Assembly (NCBI GenBank): GCA_038040445.1
Contig: JBBPIG010000018.1
Span: forward strand, 1 to 64,000
Direction of reading: 5' to 3'
Length of the DNA: 64,000 bases
Origin: Acidobacteriota bacterium
GTDB lineage: Bacteria > Acidobacteriota > Blastocatellia > UBA7656
A program made the translations under genes and the position numbers. The notes under the pieces are model-generated. The model was given only the letters and a program-made list of their open reading frames with translations. It ran no database searches and had not been told where the DNA came from. Below are positions 47,064-53,466 of the stretch, piece after piece. The number at the start of each line of letters is the position of its first letter. Positions within the stretch are counted from its first letter, which is position 1.

Positions 47064-47324
47064 TCACTTGGCGTTTGATTGATGTTTCGCGATCAACTCG
47101 CGAATAGCTGGCAGTAATTCTCTGGGAACTTCTATGACTGTCTTCGTGGGATCACTGAATACGGCCTCGTCTTCGGCGAGCGCTTCTCCTTCAGTCTGGC
47201 GCTCGTAGTGCGAGATCACGCTACGGACCTTCTCGTCGGTCCAGCCCTTGGGAAATCGATTGTTCTTCAATGGTCGCTTCCTCTTCCTGCGTCGTTTATA
47301 CGCCTGCAATGGCCTTCCGTTCAA
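47064..47324 (-). CDS. Small conserved hypothetical protein
   Basis: 86 residues from TTG 47324. A basic N-terminal stretch (KRRRKRKR) precedes the conserved core FPKGWTDEKVRSVISHYERQ, then an acidic segment and VIEVPRELLPAIRELIAKH. This pattern recurs in many genomes as a small protein often near toxin-like genes, possibly an antitoxin or regulator. It is divergent from the ACP/XRE operon and shares its control region. Confidence 0.5.
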   Translation of the reverse strand: MNGRPLQAYKRRRKRKRPLKNNRFPKGWTDEKVRSVISHYERQTEGEALAEDEAVFSDPTKTVIEVPRELLPAIRELIAKHQSNAK

Positions 47325-47343
47325 CTCTTGCTCTGCTCTGCGC

Positions 47344-47381
47344 TTGACAATATCAACCCGAGCGATGTAAGAATTTCTTAC
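47344..47381 (+). promoter_or_regulatory. Putative promoter/operator of the nucleotide-modification operon
   Basis: TTGACA (47344-47349) is a full -35. A possible -10 (TAAGAA, 47368-47373) lies 18 bases on but is poor. Overlapping it is the palindrome GTAAGAA-T-TTCTTAC (47367-47381), a good operator candidate for the XRE protein encoded 340 bases downstream. The AAGGAGG for the first gene is at 47394-47400. Confidence 0.5.
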
Positions 47382-47407
47382 GTGAGGTAAGAGAAGGAGG
47401 TCCCAAC

Positions 47408-47713
47408 ATGCTTTTAAGCCGAGATGAAGTCCGAACGCTCGTGATCTCAAGCATTCGTGAAGTTGCCGAGAACAAGAATGACGATCCAATCGTGGACGAG
47501 ACTGATCCGATTCATGACCTTGGCCTCGATAGTAACGATGGAGTTGACTTCGCATGCGCGATCAGCGAGAAATTGAACTACGACGTCCCTGATAACATCA
47601 ACCCGTTGGTTAGCGATAAACCAACCCGCCCGCGAAAGGTCGGCGAAATTGTCGACCTTATGTGCAACTTGCTGCAAGAGAGTGAACGACACGCTAGGGG
47701 AGATCGAAAGTAG
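47408..47713 (+). CDS. Acyl-carrier-protein-like protein
   Basis: 101 residues. The ACP four-helix core is recognisable: the phosphopantetheine site reads DLGLDSND (Ser42), followed by GVDFACAISEKLNYDVP and a helix at the end (VGEIVDLMCNLL). It would carry an acyl or aminoacyl group as a thioester. Finding an ACP at the head of a nucleotide-enzyme operon is unexpected. AAGGAGG precedes ATG 47408; its stop is 1 base from the next start. Confidence 0.75.
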   Translation: MLLSRDEVRTLVISSIREVAENKNDDPIVDETDPIHDLGLDSNDGVDFACAISEKLNYDVPDNINPLVSDKPTRPRKVGEIVDLMCNLLQESERHARGDRK

Positions 47714-47714
47714 A

Positions 47715-48059
47715 ATGTCTGATATCGATCCGATTCGCACATCAATAGCCGCAAGGCTCCGAGCTGCGAGGGAACAGGCTGGCCTTTCGCAAGGCCAAGT
47801 CGCGAAATTGCTCGACCTCCACCGCCCCTCAATCTCAGAAATTGAAGCCGGTCGCCGGCGGGTTTCTGCTGAGGAGCTCTCTCGCTTGGCAGGCATCTAT
47901 AACGTCAGCATCTCCTGGCTCACGGAAGAGAAATCGGAAGTCGCGGATCCCGCCGTCGAACTGGCAGCTCGCGAGTTGGCAAAGCTGAAGGGCGAGGATC
48001 TGGACCGCGTGCTTCGTTTTCTTCGTACGTTGCGGAAATCTGGAGGCAGTGAGAAATGA
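47715..48059 (+). CDS. XRE-family transcriptional regulator
   Basis: 114 residues. A lambda-repressor-type helix-turn-helix spans ~10-66 (LRAAREQAGLSQGQVAKLLD, then HRPSISEIEAGRRRVSAEEL). The short acidic tail may dimerise or be cleaved. It overlaps the ImmA/IrrE gene by the ATGA junction, the standard repressor-protease pairing: cleavage by the partner relieves repression. It likely binds the palindrome at 47367. Confidence 0.9.
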   Translation: MSDIDPIRTSIAARLRAAREQAGLSQGQVAKLLDLHRPSISEIEAGRRRVSAEELSRLAGIYNVSISWLTEEKSEVADPAVELAARELAKLKGEDLDRVLRFLRTLRKSGGSEK

Positions 48060-48931
48060 TCGATCGGGAGCGGGTTGCAAGGAAGGCTCTTCGCAACGCG
48101 CTCGCGATGCGGCGACGGGTGTCCGCATCAAGATCTCAACCAATCTGTGTCTATGATCTTGCAGAACAGTTGGGGGTCGAGGTTATATTCCGTCCTGAGA
48201 CTAGCCTAGGTGGAATGTATGTGAAAACGTCAGAGACAATTCTGATTCCCGCGAATCGGCCTCCTGGACGTCAAGCTTTTACGTGCGCACACGAGCTTGC
48301 CCACTGGCTGTTTGGACACGGAAGTCGAATCGAAGAAACTGCTGTCCTAGAAGAAGAACACCACAACAATTCCGAAGAGCGGTTGGCGAATTTCTTCGCG
48401 AGTTATTTGCTTATGCCGCCGTGGGCAGTCAGGGAAGCATTCAGTCGGCGTAACTGGATACCTCAGGCAAGTAAGCCGCTGCAGGTATACACAGTTGCGG
48501 GGCAGCTCGGGGTTGGCTACGAGACATTAGTCCAGCATCTCTACCATTCCCTTCAGCTTTTATCTTTGACACAGATGGAACAACTGCTTCGATCTACTCC
48601 GAAGCGATTGCGTCAGTCGGTCCTTGGGCACGACAACGCTCGTCATCTCGTCATCGTGGACCGCGCTTGGACTAAGATAGCCGTCGATTTGCAAGTCGGA
48701 GATTTGACCATCCTTCCGGCGAATGTCACACTCGAAGGCAGCAGCGCAAGTACTGTTGGCGATCATCCCCTGGGTGCGCTCGTCGAGGCGCGGCTGCCAG
48801 GTATTACTCGTGTCCATGCTTGTGATGGCTCGTGGGCCACATTCGTTCGGGTATCTCGTAGAGACTTCATCGGCAGAAGCATCTACCGGCACTTGGAGGA
48901 TCCCGATGTCGAGTACTCCCAATCTGATTAA
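48056..48931 (+). CDS. ImmA/IrrE family metallo-endopeptidase
   Basis: 291 residues. The zinc site HELAHWLFGH (His79, Glu80, His83) and the downstream Glu in EERLANFFASYLLMP are present. The family includes ImmA, which cleaves the ICEBs1 repressor ImmR, and IrrE/PprI, which cleaves the DdrO repressor after DNA damage. A C-terminal domain (about 190-291) after the protease is of unknown role. Coupling with the XRE gene means the operon probably turns on after DNA damage or phage attack. Confidence 0.9.
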   Translation: MIDRERVARKALRNALAMRRRVSASRSQPICVYDLAEQLGVEVIFRPETSLGGMYVKTSETILIPANRPPGRQAFTCAHELAHWLFGHGSRIEETAVLEEEHHNNSEERLANFFASYLLMPPWAVREAFSRRNWIPQASKPLQVYTVAGQLGVGYETLVQHLYHSLQLLSLTQMEQLLRSTPKRLRQSVLGHDNARHLVIVDRAWTKIAVDLQVGDLTILPANVTLEGSSASTVGDHPLGALVEARLPGITRVHACDGSWATFVRVSRRDFIGRSIYRHLEDPDVEYSQSD

Positions 48932-49715
48932 TGAAACAAACCTATCGCGGTCGTGGGCGCGGGCTTTACTTACGGTGTTAGACAACAGCCGAAGTGACTT
49001 GGCTCCTTTAACGGTCTCGATTGCGGACTTCGACGACGGTTTACCAGTCGAAGACGCGCGCATCCGCTCCGCTCTCGAAAAGTCCTTGGCACGGTCGGGA
49101 AAGTTCTCTTGTGACGTTTCCGCAATGGTGATATTCCCTTTCAAGGCATGGACACGAAGAGGGCGACCAGACATAACAACATTCTCTGAGTTCTATCTAA
49201 ACAAGTATCTCCCGAGACTTCGGGCGCTCGATTGCCGCAACAGAAGAGGAACCTACTTTGAGCGCATGATTTCCTTCCAAGGTGTAAGAGGCAAGAACGG
49301 AAAACTCTTGAGCGAGCCGAAGAACCAACTTCAACACATAATTGGTTTGTGGCCTAAGGATGGGTCTCGGCCGAGGCCCCGTCAGTCAGCACTTCAGGTC
49401 GCTTGCTTTGATCCGGTCAGGGACCACAATGGATCGTCTCTCAGCGGCTTTCCATGTCTTCAACAAGTGAGCTTCACGTACGATAACTCTGGTGGACTTG
49501 CGGTGAACGCCTATTATCCTACCCAGTATATTTTTGACCGTGCTTACGGGAATTACCTCGGGCTGTGTCATCTGGGTTATTTCATGGCGTCACAGTTTGG
49601 CCTCGCCATGGTCAGACTGAACTGTTTCATTGGGCGCCCGGAGCGAGGCGATATTACAAAATCCGCTCTGGCGGAATTAAGAAGTATGATAAGTGATGTA
49701 CTTGGTTCTCATTGA
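48906..49715 (+). CDS. Divergent thymidylate-synthase-fold protein
   Basis: 269 residues overlapping the ImmA stop by 26 bases. The C-terminal half follows the TS pattern: RQSALQVACFDP (RQ near 159), the catalytic-type Cys in FPCLQQVSF (C184), an AYYPTQ...YGNYLGL stretch that aligns with RSxDxxxGLPxN, and a last FGLAMVRLNCFIG strand. The N-terminal 100 residues have no match I know. The dUMP contact Arg-Ser pair is not retained, so the substrate may differ or the protein may be a regulator. Second TS-fold gene of the operon. Confidence 0.6.
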   Translation: MSSTPNLINETNLSRSWARALLTVLDNSRSDLAPLTVSIADFDDGLPVEDARIRSALEKSLARSGKFSCDVSAMVIFPFKAWTRRGRPDITTFSEFYLNKYLPRLRALDCRNRRGTYFERMISFQGVRGKNGKLLSEPKNQLQHIIGLWPKDGSRPRPRQSALQVACFDPVRDHNGSSLSGFPCLQQVSFTYDNSGGLAVNAYYPTQYIFDRAYGNYLGLCHLGYFMASQFGLAMVRLNCFIGRPERGDITKSALAELRSMISDVLGSH

Positions 49716-49762
49716 GAAACCACGAGGCAATAGAAGACTAGCCACGGAAAGGTTGTCGACGC

Positions 49763-50683
49763 ATGTCATTCTGGAGCACTGAGAAGATACTCCAAAAGCG
49801 GGTCTTGACGGAACTGATCAAACCCTTCGACCTCAAGCGACTCAAGCACGGTGCCTATGAATTAGCTTTGGGCCACGAGGCACTGATAACCAGCGAACCC
49901 ACTGGCTTGAAGCAAAAGCTTGAACCCGGAGAACAACTCTTAATTCCTCCTGGACAGTTCGGCATTCTCCTGACTGAGGAGATCGTATCTATCCCGGCCT
50001 ACGCAATTGGTTTTATTTCAATCCGGTTCAGTATCAAGTGTCAGGGACTCGTGAATGTATCCGGCTTCCACGTTGATCCCGGTTTCACTGGACACCTGAA
50101 ATTCGCCGTTTACAATGCTGGCAGCCAGAGTATTTTTCTCACACGCGGTGATCGTGTGTTCATGATATGGTTTAGCGATTTGAGTGAAGCTACAAGGGAT
50201 CTTTATGATGGCGAGCATTCTAACCAAAACGAAATTACCTCTGGGGACGCGCGGCTCTTGCACGGGGAGGTCGCTTCTCCAGCAGCGCTCAAGAAACAAA
50301 TTGAAGAACTACGTAGCACCATCGCTCAGCAGGTGGTTACGCTCGGGGACGAGCACAAGCGGCAGGTCTCTGCGCTTGAGGATAAGACCGAACAGCGGAT
50401 TAGGGCACTGGACGACAAGATTGGAACCTGGAGGACCTTTACCATAACCTTCTTCTCTGCAATAACAGTTCTAATACTCGGGACGATACTTAGTCTGGTT
50501 CTTGGTCTATTTACGAAGCTCTTTCCTCCGTCCCCTGCACAGTCTAACCCGGCGATTCATGAACCGCAGCCGCAGGATTCTACAAAGGATTTGAATAGTG
50601 AGAACCCTTCTACCAATCGAGACCGCACTTCCACGGACACGGAAGACAAAGGTCGATCGGTCAAACCAATTCCTAGGAGATGA
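49763..50683 (+). CDS. dUTPase/dCTP-deaminase-like protein with coiled coil and membrane anchor
   Basis: 306 residues. The first ~160 fit the dUTPase/DCD beta-fold: LLIPPGQFGILLTEE, FISIRFSIKCQGLVN, then GFHVDPGFTGHLKFAVYN. The dCTP-deaminase catalytic Glu (LEFxN in E. coli Dcd) is replaced by Ala in FAVYN, while the dUTPase Asp in VDPGFTG is kept. A coiled coil (about 175-225), one membrane helix (about 230-255) and a polar tail follow. It may be a membrane-tethered dUTP-binding or hydrolysing factor instead of a deaminase. Confidence 0.7.
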   Translation: MSFWSTEKILQKRVLTELIKPFDLKRLKHGAYELALGHEALITSEPTGLKQKLEPGEQLLIPPGQFGILLTEEIVSIPAYAIGFISIRFSIKCQGLVNVSGFHVDPGFTGHLKFAVYNAGSQSIFLTRGDRVFMIWFSDLSEATRDLYDGEHSNQNEITSGDARLLHGEVASPAALKKQIEELRSTIAQQVVTLGDEHKRQVSALEDKTEQRIRALDDKIGTWRTFTITFFSAITVLILGTILSLVLGLFTKLFPPSPAQSNPAIHEPQPQDSTKDLNSENPSTNRDRTSTDTEDKGRSVKPIPRR

Positions 50684-50689
50684 TCAACA

Positions 50690-51364
50690 ATGTGTGAACC
50701 GGGAAAACTGTTTGTCTTTGAAGGGCCCGACAACTCCGGTAAAACGACCCTATCGATAGCCTCTGCGGAATACTTTCGAAGCAAGGGGATAGAGTGCGAC
50801 TATTTCGCTTTTCCAGGAAGAGAAATCGGCACTCTCGGAACCCTAGTTTACGGATTGCACCACGACCCCCAATCTAGGGGCGTTCAAGCGATAACCCCGA
50901 CGAGTCTTCAGCTGCTACACATCGCGGCTCATGTTGATGCCATCGAATCCAAAATCCTGCCGGCACTTAAGATCGGCCGGAACGTTGTGCTCGATCGATT
51001 CTGGTGGTCGACGCTAGTGTACGGAAGAGTCGCGGGAGCGAACCGAGCCGCGCTTGGGAGGATGGTCGACTTGGAGCAAGCTTGCTGGGCGAATCATTCT
51101 CCAGAAGGAGTCTTCTTGATACAACGTTCGAACCCTATTACCGCTCCCGCAACAGATGACTGGAAGGCAGTTTCTCAGGAGTACGCTGAGGTTGCCGCGC
51201 AAGAGGCTAATCGCTACCCGGTTTGGTACGTCGAAAACAACGGTGGTTTTGCGGACGCACTGTCACAAGTTGTTAAGCATATCTACCTCGATAGGGAGTT
51301 AAGTGAAGCCGATGGCTCGACGACAGCGGACAGATACTATCATCCAGCTTCAACTGAGGCTTAA
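50690..51364 (+). CDS. Thymidylate-kinase-like nucleoside monophosphate kinase
   Basis: 224 residues. P-loop FEGPDNSGKTT (~10-20) and the DRFWWSTLVYG motif (DR-Y/F and Ser contacts) place it with dTMP kinases. The LID region is shorter and altered (IQRSNPITAPATDDW), so it may phosphorylate a modified dUMP/dTMP. A 6-base gap from the previous gene and an overlap with the next show coupling. Confidence 0.8.
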   Translation: MCEPGKLFVFEGPDNSGKTTLSIASAEYFRSKGIECDYFAFPGREIGTLGTLVYGLHHDPQSRGVQAITPTSLQLLHIAAHVDAIESKILPALKIGRNVVLDRFWWSTLVYGRVAGANRAALGRMVDLEQACWANHSPEGVFLIQRSNPITAPATDDWKAVSQEYAEVAAQEANRYPVWYVENNGGFADALSQVVKHIYLDRELSEADGSTTADRYYHPASTEA

Positions 51365-52388
51365 GCAGACTGTCAAACGGACCCCCGTCATATTCACGCG
51401 GCTTGCACCTGCCAAGGTGACGGTAGTATATGACACTTACTGGCGGTTCGCGGCGGAACGCCAACGAATCTTCTTCCAGCGAGTGAATGGCGAAGCGCCC
51501 CCTTGGACTGACGATCCGACGCTACGACAGTATAAGTTCACAAACGCCTATCGAGCATCTGATCGAGTGAGCCAATACCTAATTAGACGCGTGATCTATG
51601 AGGGTGATCAATCGCTAGAGGAAATCGTCTTCAGAACGCTGCTATTTAAGTTTTTTAACAAAGTTGGGACTTGGGAACTGCTCGAGCGCGCATTCGGAAC
51701 TGTATGGTCTACTGACTATTCCGTCAAACACTACGGCTCAGTATTAGAGAGGGCTCTGAGCACAGGAATTCCGATATACTCCGCCGCGTATATCATGCCA
51801 TCGGGCGGGAGATCTCTCATCCGTGAGAGAAAACACTGCATGCACCTCAAGCTCCTAGAACGAATGATGCGGGACAAACTACCAGATCGTTTGGCTGATG
51901 CTCACTCAATGAAGGAGGCTTTTGAATTGCTACGCTCATATCCCACAATTGGTGATTTTCTCGCATATCAGTACGTGACGGATCTCAACTACAGCACGAT
52001 ACTGAACTACAGTGAAATGGAGTTTGTGGTTCCAGGACCCGGCGCTCGCGACGGAATCCGCAAATGCTTTGAGGATCTTGGTGGATTGAATGGAACCGAA
52101 ATTATTAAGGTGATAGCGGACAGGCAGGAATCGGAGTTTGAACGATTAGAGCTACCATTTCAAACTCTTTGGGGTCGGCGGCTGCAATTGATTGACTGCC
52201 AGAATCTCTTTTGTGAGGTGGACAAGTACTCACGGATAGAACATCCTGAAATCTCAGGCGTTACCGGACGAACGAGGATCAAACAAAGATATCGAATCAG
52301 CTCCGCCCCTATTCCATATTGGTACCCGCCCAAGTGGGGCCTGAACGAGCGCATCAAAGAGGGTGGTCAGTATGTTTCGAGTATTTGA
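51312..52388 (+). CDS. Protein resembling 5-hmdU DNA kinase helical domain / thymine hypermodification family
   Basis: 358 residues, all-helical with no P-loop. The signature stretches are RQYKFTNAYRASDRVSQYLI, GDQSLEEIVFRTLLFKFFNK and GTWELL, then IYSAAYIM and the later TILNYSEMEFVVPGPGARDG. These match what I recall of the helical domain found next to 5-hydroxymethyl-dU DNA kinase and the glutamyl/putrescinyl-thymine pyrophosphorylases of phages with modified T. The catalytic kinase could be supplied in trans by the previous gene. GTG 51303 or ATG 51312 start. Confidence 0.6.
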   Translation: MARRQRTDTIIQLQLRLKQTVKRTPVIFTRLAPAKVTVVYDTYWRFAAERQRIFFQRVNGEAPPWTDDPTLRQYKFTNAYRASDRVSQYLIRRVIYEGDQSLEEIVFRTLLFKFFNKVGTWELLERAFGTVWSTDYSVKHYGSVLERALSTGIPIYSAAYIMPSGGRSLIRERKHCMHLKLLERMMRDKLPDRLADAHSMKEAFELLRSYPTIGDFLAYQYVTDLNYSTILNYSEMEFVVPGPGARDGIRKCFEDLGGLNGTEIIKVIADRQESEFERLELPFQTLWGRRLQLIDCQNLFCEVDKYSRIEHPEISGVTGRTRIKQRYRISSAPIPYWYPPKWGLNERIKEGGQYVSSI

Positions 52389-53424
52389 GGGCAGTACCGC
52401 TGATGAAGTTTGGGCAAAAGCTGCATCTGCGTTTCGGCGTGGTGACGGAACAGATCAGTCGAGCCGTGCGGGGGACACGCGTGAACTCCTGCACTCGGCC
52501 ATGTCCATCTCCAATCCGATTCAAAGATGGGTGATTTCTCGAGTTCCAGCGATCAATCCAGCTTTTGCAATTGCGGAAACAATTTGGATCATGACCGGCC
52601 GGAACGATTCGGCATTCCTGAACTACTTCAATAGACGCTTGCCAGAATACGCCGGACACGGCGACACATATCACGGCGCCTACGGTTATCGCCTTCGCCA
52701 TCACTTTGGTATCGATCAAATCGAGCGAGCTTATCAAGCATTGAACTCGAAGCCTCACACTCGCCAGGTCACTCTCCAGATTTGGGATTCAAGGATTGAT
52801 CTTCCCAGCCCTACCGGTCAGGAAGCCTCGCCCGACATACCCTGCAATGTTGCTTCAATCCTCAAGGTGCGTCGCGGCAGACTTGAATGGATGCAAATCC
52901 TTCGGAGCAACGACCTATATCGTGGCCTCCCTTATAACATTGTCCAGTTCACAACCCTTCAAGAGATCTTGGCGGGATGGTTGGGCATTGGCGTAGGCGA
53001 ATACAATCAGATAAGTAACAGCCTCCATGTTTATGCTCGAGATCTTCCCAGGATCGAGAAAGCTAGCTTGACCGGATCCCTCGCGGACGTACGCAACACA
53101 GACTCTCTGACGCTGCCCAAGGACGAGTCTGAAAAATCGTTCGCGCAGCTTAGCGAGAACGTCCAGACAATCATCGATCAACGTATTTCCGCCGAAGCCT
53201 TAATGCTAAACGTCCGGCGAGTAAGCCTAGGGCAGGCTTTCCGAAACATGCTATGCGTTCTCTCAGCCGAGGGATCCCGCCGCCGCGGCAGTGTAGATAT
53301 TGCGCGGGAAATAATGGCCGAGTGTTCAAATCCCGTCTACAAGGTGCTATTTGATCGCTGGCTCGATCGGGTCTTAGGAAACTCCAAACCACTTTCGGAA
53401 CAGAATGACAGGGTAATGGTGTGA
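52372..53424 (+). CDS. Thymidylate synthase family protein (dUMP methylase or hydroxymethylase)
   Basis: 350 residues. All main TS residues are visible: nucleophile C158 in DIPCNVA, R178-S179-x-D181 in LRSNDLYRGL, N189 (dUMP-specific; Asp would indicate dCMP) and H219/Y221 in SLHVY. Yet the overall sequence is far from housekeeping ThyA and is ~85 residues longer than ThyA, with an extra helical C-terminal region after ~230. Placed at the end of a thymine-hypermodification-like operon it may be a dUMP hydroxymethylase. It overlaps the previous gene by 17 bases. Confidence 0.75.
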   Translation: MFRVFEGSTADEVWAKAASAFRRGDGTDQSSRAGDTRELLHSAMSISNPIQRWVISRVPAINPAFAIAETIWIMTGRNDSAFLNYFNRRLPEYAGHGDTYHGAYGYRLRHHFGIDQIERAYQALNSKPHTRQVTLQIWDSRIDLPSPTGQEASPDIPCNVASILKVRRGRLEWMQILRSNDLYRGLPYNIVQFTTLQEILAGWLGIGVGEYNQISNSLHVYARDLPRIEKASLTGSLADVRNTDSLTLPKDESEKSFAQLSENVQTIIDQRISAEALMLNVRRVSLGQAFRNMLCVLSAEGSRRRGSVDIAREIMAECSNPVYKVLFDRWLDRVLGNSKPLSEQNDRVMV

Positions 53425-53466
53425 ATGAGAAGTTGGCCACTGACGTTGTGACGCTTCCAATCCGAA

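Follow-up and report, generated by a model that had tools for sequence, protein, structure and literature searches.

The operon described here lies in a 64,000-nucleotide stretch of the genome of a soil bacterium of the Acidobacteriota (Blastocatellia, UBA7656; GenBank assembly GCA_038040445.1, contig JBBPIG010000018.1, positions 1 to 64,000 of the forward strand), hereafter the window. It is a single operon of eight plus-strand genes between positions 47408 and 53424, neighbours overlapping or lying at most 47 bp apart. In order, the genes encode an acyl carrier protein (ACP), an XRE-type repressor, an ImmA-type peptidase, a divergent thymidylate synthase (TS)-fold enzyme (TSa), a DCD/dUTPase-fold protein, a P-loop kinase of thymidylate kinase type (TMK), a protein of the HMUDK_hel family (HEL) and a second TS-family protein (TSb). 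Eight coupled genes had been proposed in a first-pass annotation made from the sequence letters, and this is confirmed; its start at 47344 covers the presumed promoter or leader region (47340 to 47407, plus strand), which carries a Shine-Dalgarno sequence (aggaggt) 5' of the ACP gene, but the first gene begins at 47408. A consensus scan found no sigma-70-like promoter 5' of the ACP gene, and a promoter and terminator scan returned signals not above those of shuffled sequence. The reported difference in base composition and codon use from the flanks also holds, with a GC content of 0.50 to 0.54 in the operon versus about 0.58 for the window, and a third-position GC of 0.52 to 0.59 in its genes versus 0.59 to 0.73 in four flanking genes. 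A small open reading frame lies 5' of the operon on the minus strand (47064 to 47345).

The same set of genes, here termed the cassette, was found together across many phyla in the gene-neighbourhood search that the first-pass annotation had proposed as a check. Of 214 confirmed relatives of HEL in GTDB genomes the best 80 (57 to 69% identity) were retained, which with the window and three other Acidobacteriota gave 84 loci; the 80 being best matches, counts lean toward close kin of the window HEL. XRE, ImmA, TSa and HEL, detected with profiles built from the cassette, occur together in 69 of the 84 loci, and 66 of those 69 also have an ACP; the usual order is ACP-XRE-ImmA-TSa-(TMK)-HEL. Judged by record titles, the loci come from at least 14 phyla. 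Among 396 sampled Acidobacteriota genomes HEL was present in six, five of which also carried a strong TSa match, and in the sixth HEL is cut by the end of the contig. Acidobacteriota fall in five separate places on the HEL tree, at least three of them forced by well-supported branches, and this scatter suggests that the cassette spread horizontally. Copies also occur on cyanobacterial, rhizobial and Streptomyces plasmids. The right flank of the window operon is present in a genome of the same genus (G398) at 87.6% identity, and the match breaks off at window position 53461, some 36 bp beyond the right end of the cassette; the G398 contig stops at that same point and the left flank was not found there, so an empty insertion site could not be demonstrated in G398. 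A search for repeats flanking the cassette found none.

The repressor and peptidase follow the ACP gene directly. XRE (47715 to 48059) is a CapH-like helix-turn-helix protein (HTH_3, 1e-16; PADLOC capH profile, 7e-16), and the adjoining ImmA (48056 to 48931) is a CapP-like zinc metallopeptidase (Peptidase_M78, 1e-15; PADLOC capP profile, 2e-18) bearing HExxH...E and a conserved C-terminal extension. Its residues H79, E80, H83 and E108 are kept in 74 of 74 sequences. CapH/CapP pairs are controllers of immune operons triggered by single-stranded DNA (PMC13373217), and repressor cleavage stimulated by single-stranded DNA has been described for CapP (PMC13373217) and PprI (PMC10904395). By this resemblance we infer a damage-type switch in which ImmA would cleave XRE in response to single-stranded DNA, and homology thus supports the DNA-damage switch of the first-pass annotation. 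As in the CapH/CapP operons of CBASS and other systems, the pair stands near the operon head; unlike them, the window operon has no CD-NTase or Cap effector, and its pair comes after an ACP gene and before nucleotide and base enzymes. In three other loci (L011, 5301-6937; L044; L077) a chagasin-like inhibitor domain forms part of ImmA and a papain-like C1 peptidase is encoded beside it, which would add a protease layer to the switch.

The last three genes resemble a known phage module. Profile searches placed TSb (52372 to 53424) in the Thymidylat_synt family and HEL (51312 to 52388) in PF18723 (HMUDK_hel, E 1e-112), as expected for a TS-fold protein and for the helical protein of thymine-hypermodification type that had been proposed; both also belong to phage protein families (phrog_5131 for TSb, at 6e-64, and phrog_2396 for HEL). 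In Pseudomonas phage PaMx11 the genes gp49 (P-loop kinase), gp50 and gp51 (TS) stand in TMK-HEL-TSb order near gp46, with HEL matching gp50 by sequence (28% identity, E 9e-25), and not gp46, and TSb matching gp51 (39% identity, E 4e-47). Gene order and family match therefore make TMK-HEL-TSb the counterpart of the phage module for the synthesis and phosphorylation of 5-hydroxymethyldeoxyuridine (5-hmdU), of which the SP10 and M6/ViI types are further examples. The gp49 gene (L145, 5947-6516) is annotated as a terminase small subunit, yet it carries a P-loop and adjoins the HEL homologue; phrog_800 likewise appears to be a misnamed kinase-HEL fusion. Three differences separate the cassettes from the phage module. 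Profile search of the eight window genes found, besides HEL, no amino-acid or polyamine transferase (PUGT/AADT, aGPT-Pplase), so that a gp46/PUGT-type enzyme is missing; window-type cassettes add ACP, TSa, the CapH/CapP switch and, in many relatives, a holo-ACP synthase (AcpS); and they sit in cellular, defence-rich neighbourhoods, with TSa absent from the phage records searched.

Against solved structures the best match of TSb is MilA (8e-25), the CMP 5-hydroxymethylase of the mildiomycin pathway, ahead of ThyA (about 1e-9). TSb has the motifs PCN and RSND and a uracil-type Asn188, and RSND with Asn is nearly invariant in 27 relatives, versus RAND with Asp in MilA. In established TS work residues of the RSND/Asn type favour a deoxy, uracil substrate; the Ser and Asn that replace the Ala and Asp of MilA thus point to dUMP, and TSb is probably a dUMP 5-hydroxymethylase. 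The kinase (50690 to 51364) does belong to Thymidylate_kin (PF02223, 7e-14), the family behind the dTMP kinase of the first-pass annotation, but it more probably represents the kinase portion of a 5-hmdU kinase split in two, since the TMK and HEL genes overlap in the window and form one fused protein in 23 loci. The HEL model (pLDDT 89) has as its top structure PaMx11 gp46/PUGT (8z2n), named in its PDB entry a 5-phosphomethyl-dU glycinyltransferase, followed by the queuosine nucleosidase DUF2419 and 8-oxoguanine/AlkA glycosylases (Z 7 to 11); among viral models it matches the SP10 5-hmdU DNA kinase (E 7e-15). A conserved VPGPG motif is consistent with a helix-hairpin-helix (HhH) fold, and HEL models as a member of the HhH glycosylase superfamily, a Z near 11 being in itself no proof for a helical protein.

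TSa (48906 to 49715) had no Pfam match in the profile search and matches methanogen TS weakly by sequence. Its AlphaFold2 model (pLDDT 93) is nevertheless a TS fold, which bears out the second TS-fold gene of the first-pass annotation; the nearest entries by VIA-align are MilA (Z 17.1) and the AfhB dCMP hydroxylase (Z 17.0), versus Z 14 to 15 for ordinary TS structures. The catalytic Cys184, Tyr117 and the uracil-type Asn216 are retained, Cys184 and Asn216 invariantly. Unlike in TSb, an RSND-type (RSxD) motif was not recognised in the alignments, whose profile confidence is modest in that region, and the cofactor of TSa may for this reason be something other than folate. Both TS-fold genes are extra to the host, a 6.7-Mb acidobacterial genome which has its own full-length ThyA on a different contig (E 6e-127). 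That genome holds a second phage-type TS-like gene as well (contig G000 C26; locus L113, 9377-10402), near radical SAM genes, and no cassette was found around it.

The first gene of the operon (47408 to 47713) encodes a 101-residue ACP, a call of the first-pass annotation that PF00550 bears out above its cut-off (E 8e-5). Its phosphopantetheine serine, Ser42 in a GLDS motif, is the sole strictly invariant residue in the cassette ACPs (64 of 64). A gene for AcpS with a good Pfam score is linked to 33 of the 84 loci; none is found among the eight window genes, and AcpS of the host was not searched for. In Bradyrhizobium elkanii the ACP profile finds nothing, yet the gene before XRE encodes a DSLS motif, with acpS as its neighbour, so loci negative for the profile can hold a diverged ACP. 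To our knowledge no defence or DNA-modification pathway accounts for the need of a carrier protein. Mutant thymidylate synthases are known in which a thiol captures the C5-methylene intermediate. We tentatively propose that TSa and holo-ACP carry out a new chemistry, in which the TSa cysteine would activate uracil C5 and the pantetheine thiol or an acyl group on the ACP would be linked at the C5 carbon or the methylene, leaving a nucleotide or DNA base attached to a protein, as cargo or as a conjugate; we regard this as rather unlikely, and no natural nucleotide bound to a carrier protein in this way is known to us.

The fifth gene (49763 to 50683) matches the DCD profile (PF22769, 7e-12), and to that extent the DCD/dUTPase-like assignment stands. 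Mapped through E. coli Dcd, which we take to place the deaminase glutamate correctly, that position is Ala or Ser in nearly all of 28 relatives and Arg in three divergent ones, and the Asp common to dUTPases is kept. A C-terminal hydrophobic, transmembrane-like segment is present on all 28. We read it as a probable dUTPase-like or nucleotide-binding protein anchored in the membrane, and not as a dCTP deaminase. A literal reading of the operon as dTMP kinase plus dCTP deaminase was rejected on this missing glutamate and on the TMK-HEL fusions.

The tail of the cassette varies, with TSb in 26 loci, a MazG-MazG_C protein in 49 and a radical SAM/SPASM protein in 10. DCD-like proteins occur in 29 of the 84 loci. 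The window cassette is of the type with TSb and TMK, which co-occur in 24 of the 26 TSb loci (Fisher p 4e-10); AcpS is associated with MazG (in 30 of the 33 loci that have AcpS, p 9e-7) and TSb with the absence of MazG (p 1e-7), all three tests being uncorrected for ancestry. Independent pairs on the HEL tree run in the same directions (TSb with TMK, 5.1 of 6 same and 0 opposite; TSb with MazG, 3.4 opposite and 0.2 same) and are too few for firm significance. Three rhizobial plasmid cassettes comprise an ACP-like gene, XRE, ImmA, a C1 peptidase, a diverged TSa and, in the HEL slot, a uracil-DNA glycosylase (UDG; L124, 6771-7451; L125, 6692-7372; L141, 6597-7283). Two of the three have AcpS and MazG-type genes, and in the one that was scanned ImmA carries a chagasin I42 domain. 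A UDG in the HEL slot means that the shared core is ACP, TSa and an enzyme for a uracil-type base. The swap and the predicted glycosylase-superfamily fold of HEL recall antiviral DNA glycosylases of the Brig1 type; Brig1 itself excises glucosylated hydroxymethylcytosine, and the likeness of HEL to it is one of predicted fold. In three acidobacterial cassettes a protein of 86 to 87 residues lies between MazG and dUTPase (L009, 11821-12081; L010, 11249-11512).

The surroundings of the relatives are rich in defence genes. At E 1e-10, 120 proteins sampled on either side of the GTDB loci match 258 PADLOC families, many at E below 1e-50, including DpdF, Druantia DruM, DndD, SoFic, PsyrT and parts of type I and II restriction systems; 120 proteins from random acidobacterial stretches, taken as a control, matched 14 families, none below 1e-30. 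One plasmid copy of the cassette adjoins Shedu. A ThsB-type TIR gene occurs in 10 of 99 loci and an Nmad2 gene in 9 of 99; the two stand together beside HEL in L027, L029, L048, L052, L054, L055, L062, L072 and L087. Some of these HEL-TIR-Nmad2 loci are without ACP, XRE, ImmA and TSa and possibly represent a separate system.

From gene families, predicted folds and recurrence we consider it fairly probable that the operon is an inducible anti-phage, or conflict, system acting through C5-modified deoxyuridine. The defence reading offered in the first-pass annotation is thereby supported, by homology and by the defence genes flanking relatives. Phage- or damage-derived single-stranded DNA would activate ImmA, and cleavage of XRE, as in CapH/CapP pairs, would turn the operon on. 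TSb would then convert dUMP to 5-hydroxymethyl-dUMP, as its homology and active-site residues suggest, and TMK with HEL, as a split phage-type 5-hmdU DNA kinase, would phosphorylate the 5-hydroxymethyl group of the base in DNA, a role to which fusion, synteny and fold point and in which HEL would be the base-handling HhH subunit. TSa and 4'-phosphopantetheinylated ACP might perform a further C5 step in place of the phage amino-acid transferase. The membrane-anchored DCD/dUTPase-like protein may sense or trim the dUTP pool, and DCD, MazG and dUTPase proteins would shape the dUMP/dUTP pool across cassette types. The result would be modified DNA that is repair-prone or blocked, or modified nucleotides, halting phage replication; the possible cost of modified DNA to the cell would call for a tight switch.

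Several observations weigh against this interpretation. Many MazG-type loci have neither TSb nor TMK, and the 5-hmdU route therefore cannot be the whole of the core chemistry. The match between TMK and PaMx11 gp49 is weak, HEL has no sequence relatives in the PDB, and its likeness to PUGT lies in structure alone (8% identity, Z 11.4), a score that mostly helical models can reach by chance. By eye, no obvious defence genes neighbour the window operon itself, and the flank control was drawn from Acidobacteriota and was not genome-matched.

Among other explanations, self-protection is unlikely: the operon would decorate the DNA of the cell or of a mobile element with modified thymine, making it nuclease-resistant like that of hypermodifying phages. 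TSb-TMK-HEL being the phage hypermodification module, and the occurrence of cassettes on conjugative plasmids, would suit it. A damage-type repressor-protease switch, however, suits emergency expression and not constant marking, the cassette has no amino-acid transferase or dedicated polymerase, and a UDG in place of HEL would attack DNA, not shield it. We give no better chance to an abortive system that works by nucleotide depletion or signalling, resembling defence linked to dCTP deaminase or dUTPase; TS and kinase would then drain dUMP or dTMP, and base modification would be incidental. DCD-like, MazG-MazG_C and dUTPase genes do recur, and some cassettes stand beside TIR and Nmad2 genes, but the DCD-like proteins have lost the deaminase glutamate and are confined to a minority of loci, and the conserved HEL and TSa are not known depletion enzymes.

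Slightly less likely still is a small-molecule pathway, with a nucleoside natural product or signal built on the carrier protein and hydroxymethylated by a TS-type enzyme as in mildiomycin or bacimethrin biosynthesis; the ACP, accompanied in many relatives by a dedicated AcpS, the MilA-like enzyme and the radical SAM genes of some loci are what one would expect of it, but ligases, ketosynthases, adenylation domains and exporters were not seen among the recurring neighbour families, DNA-base enzymes occupy the HEL/UDG slot, and the relatives' flanks are rich in defence genes. A chance remnant of a hypermodification island left by a phage or prophage is very improbable: TSb and HEL are of phage families and the cassette occurs on a few viral contigs, but TSa has no match among 50,697 phage records and only three in viral contigs, cellular genomes of different phyla keep the gene order and intact frames, and no phage structural genes lie near the operon. 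Most of the cassettes also appear to stand outside prophages. The absence of TSa from phage records led us to reject a plain prophage reading. The few IMG/VR contigs classed as viral that carry the cassette or TSa are L093 and L138 to L140.

Returning to the anti-phage reading, defence by nucleotide or base modification is, as a kind, known since 2026 at the latest. In that year phage plating validated E. coli defence systems that contain thymidylate synthase and 5-hydroxymethyluracil kinase domains (PMC13092281). These DefensePredictor systems, with TS, dNMP kinase, 5-hmdU DNA kinase and NMAD domains, comprise enzymes of the types seen in the cassette and were validated against phage in E. 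coli MG1655. For predicted systems the same paper lists domains of MazG, MazG-C, dUTPase, UDG and aGPT-Pplase, and its main text nowhere uses the term 'acyl carrier'. When E. coli genomes were searched at the DNA level for the validated TS/5-hmdU-kinase systems, no match turned up, and the two are likened by domain types alone, a further point against our interpretation. Among open-access (open-licence) papers we found none linking ACP, ImmA and TS in defence. The first-pass annotation could not name the combination, and in part this stands: as far as our search of the open literature goes, the core of ACP or AcpS and TSa with a HEL or UDG partner seems not to have been described, but TS/5-hmdU-kinase systems as such have been validated. 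If our interpretation is correct, the cassette would represent a widespread form of immunity in which the viral thymine-modifying toolkit is directed against viruses, with an ACP and its activating enzyme as dedicated parts, and it poses a direct chemical question: what the ACP carries, and which base receives it.

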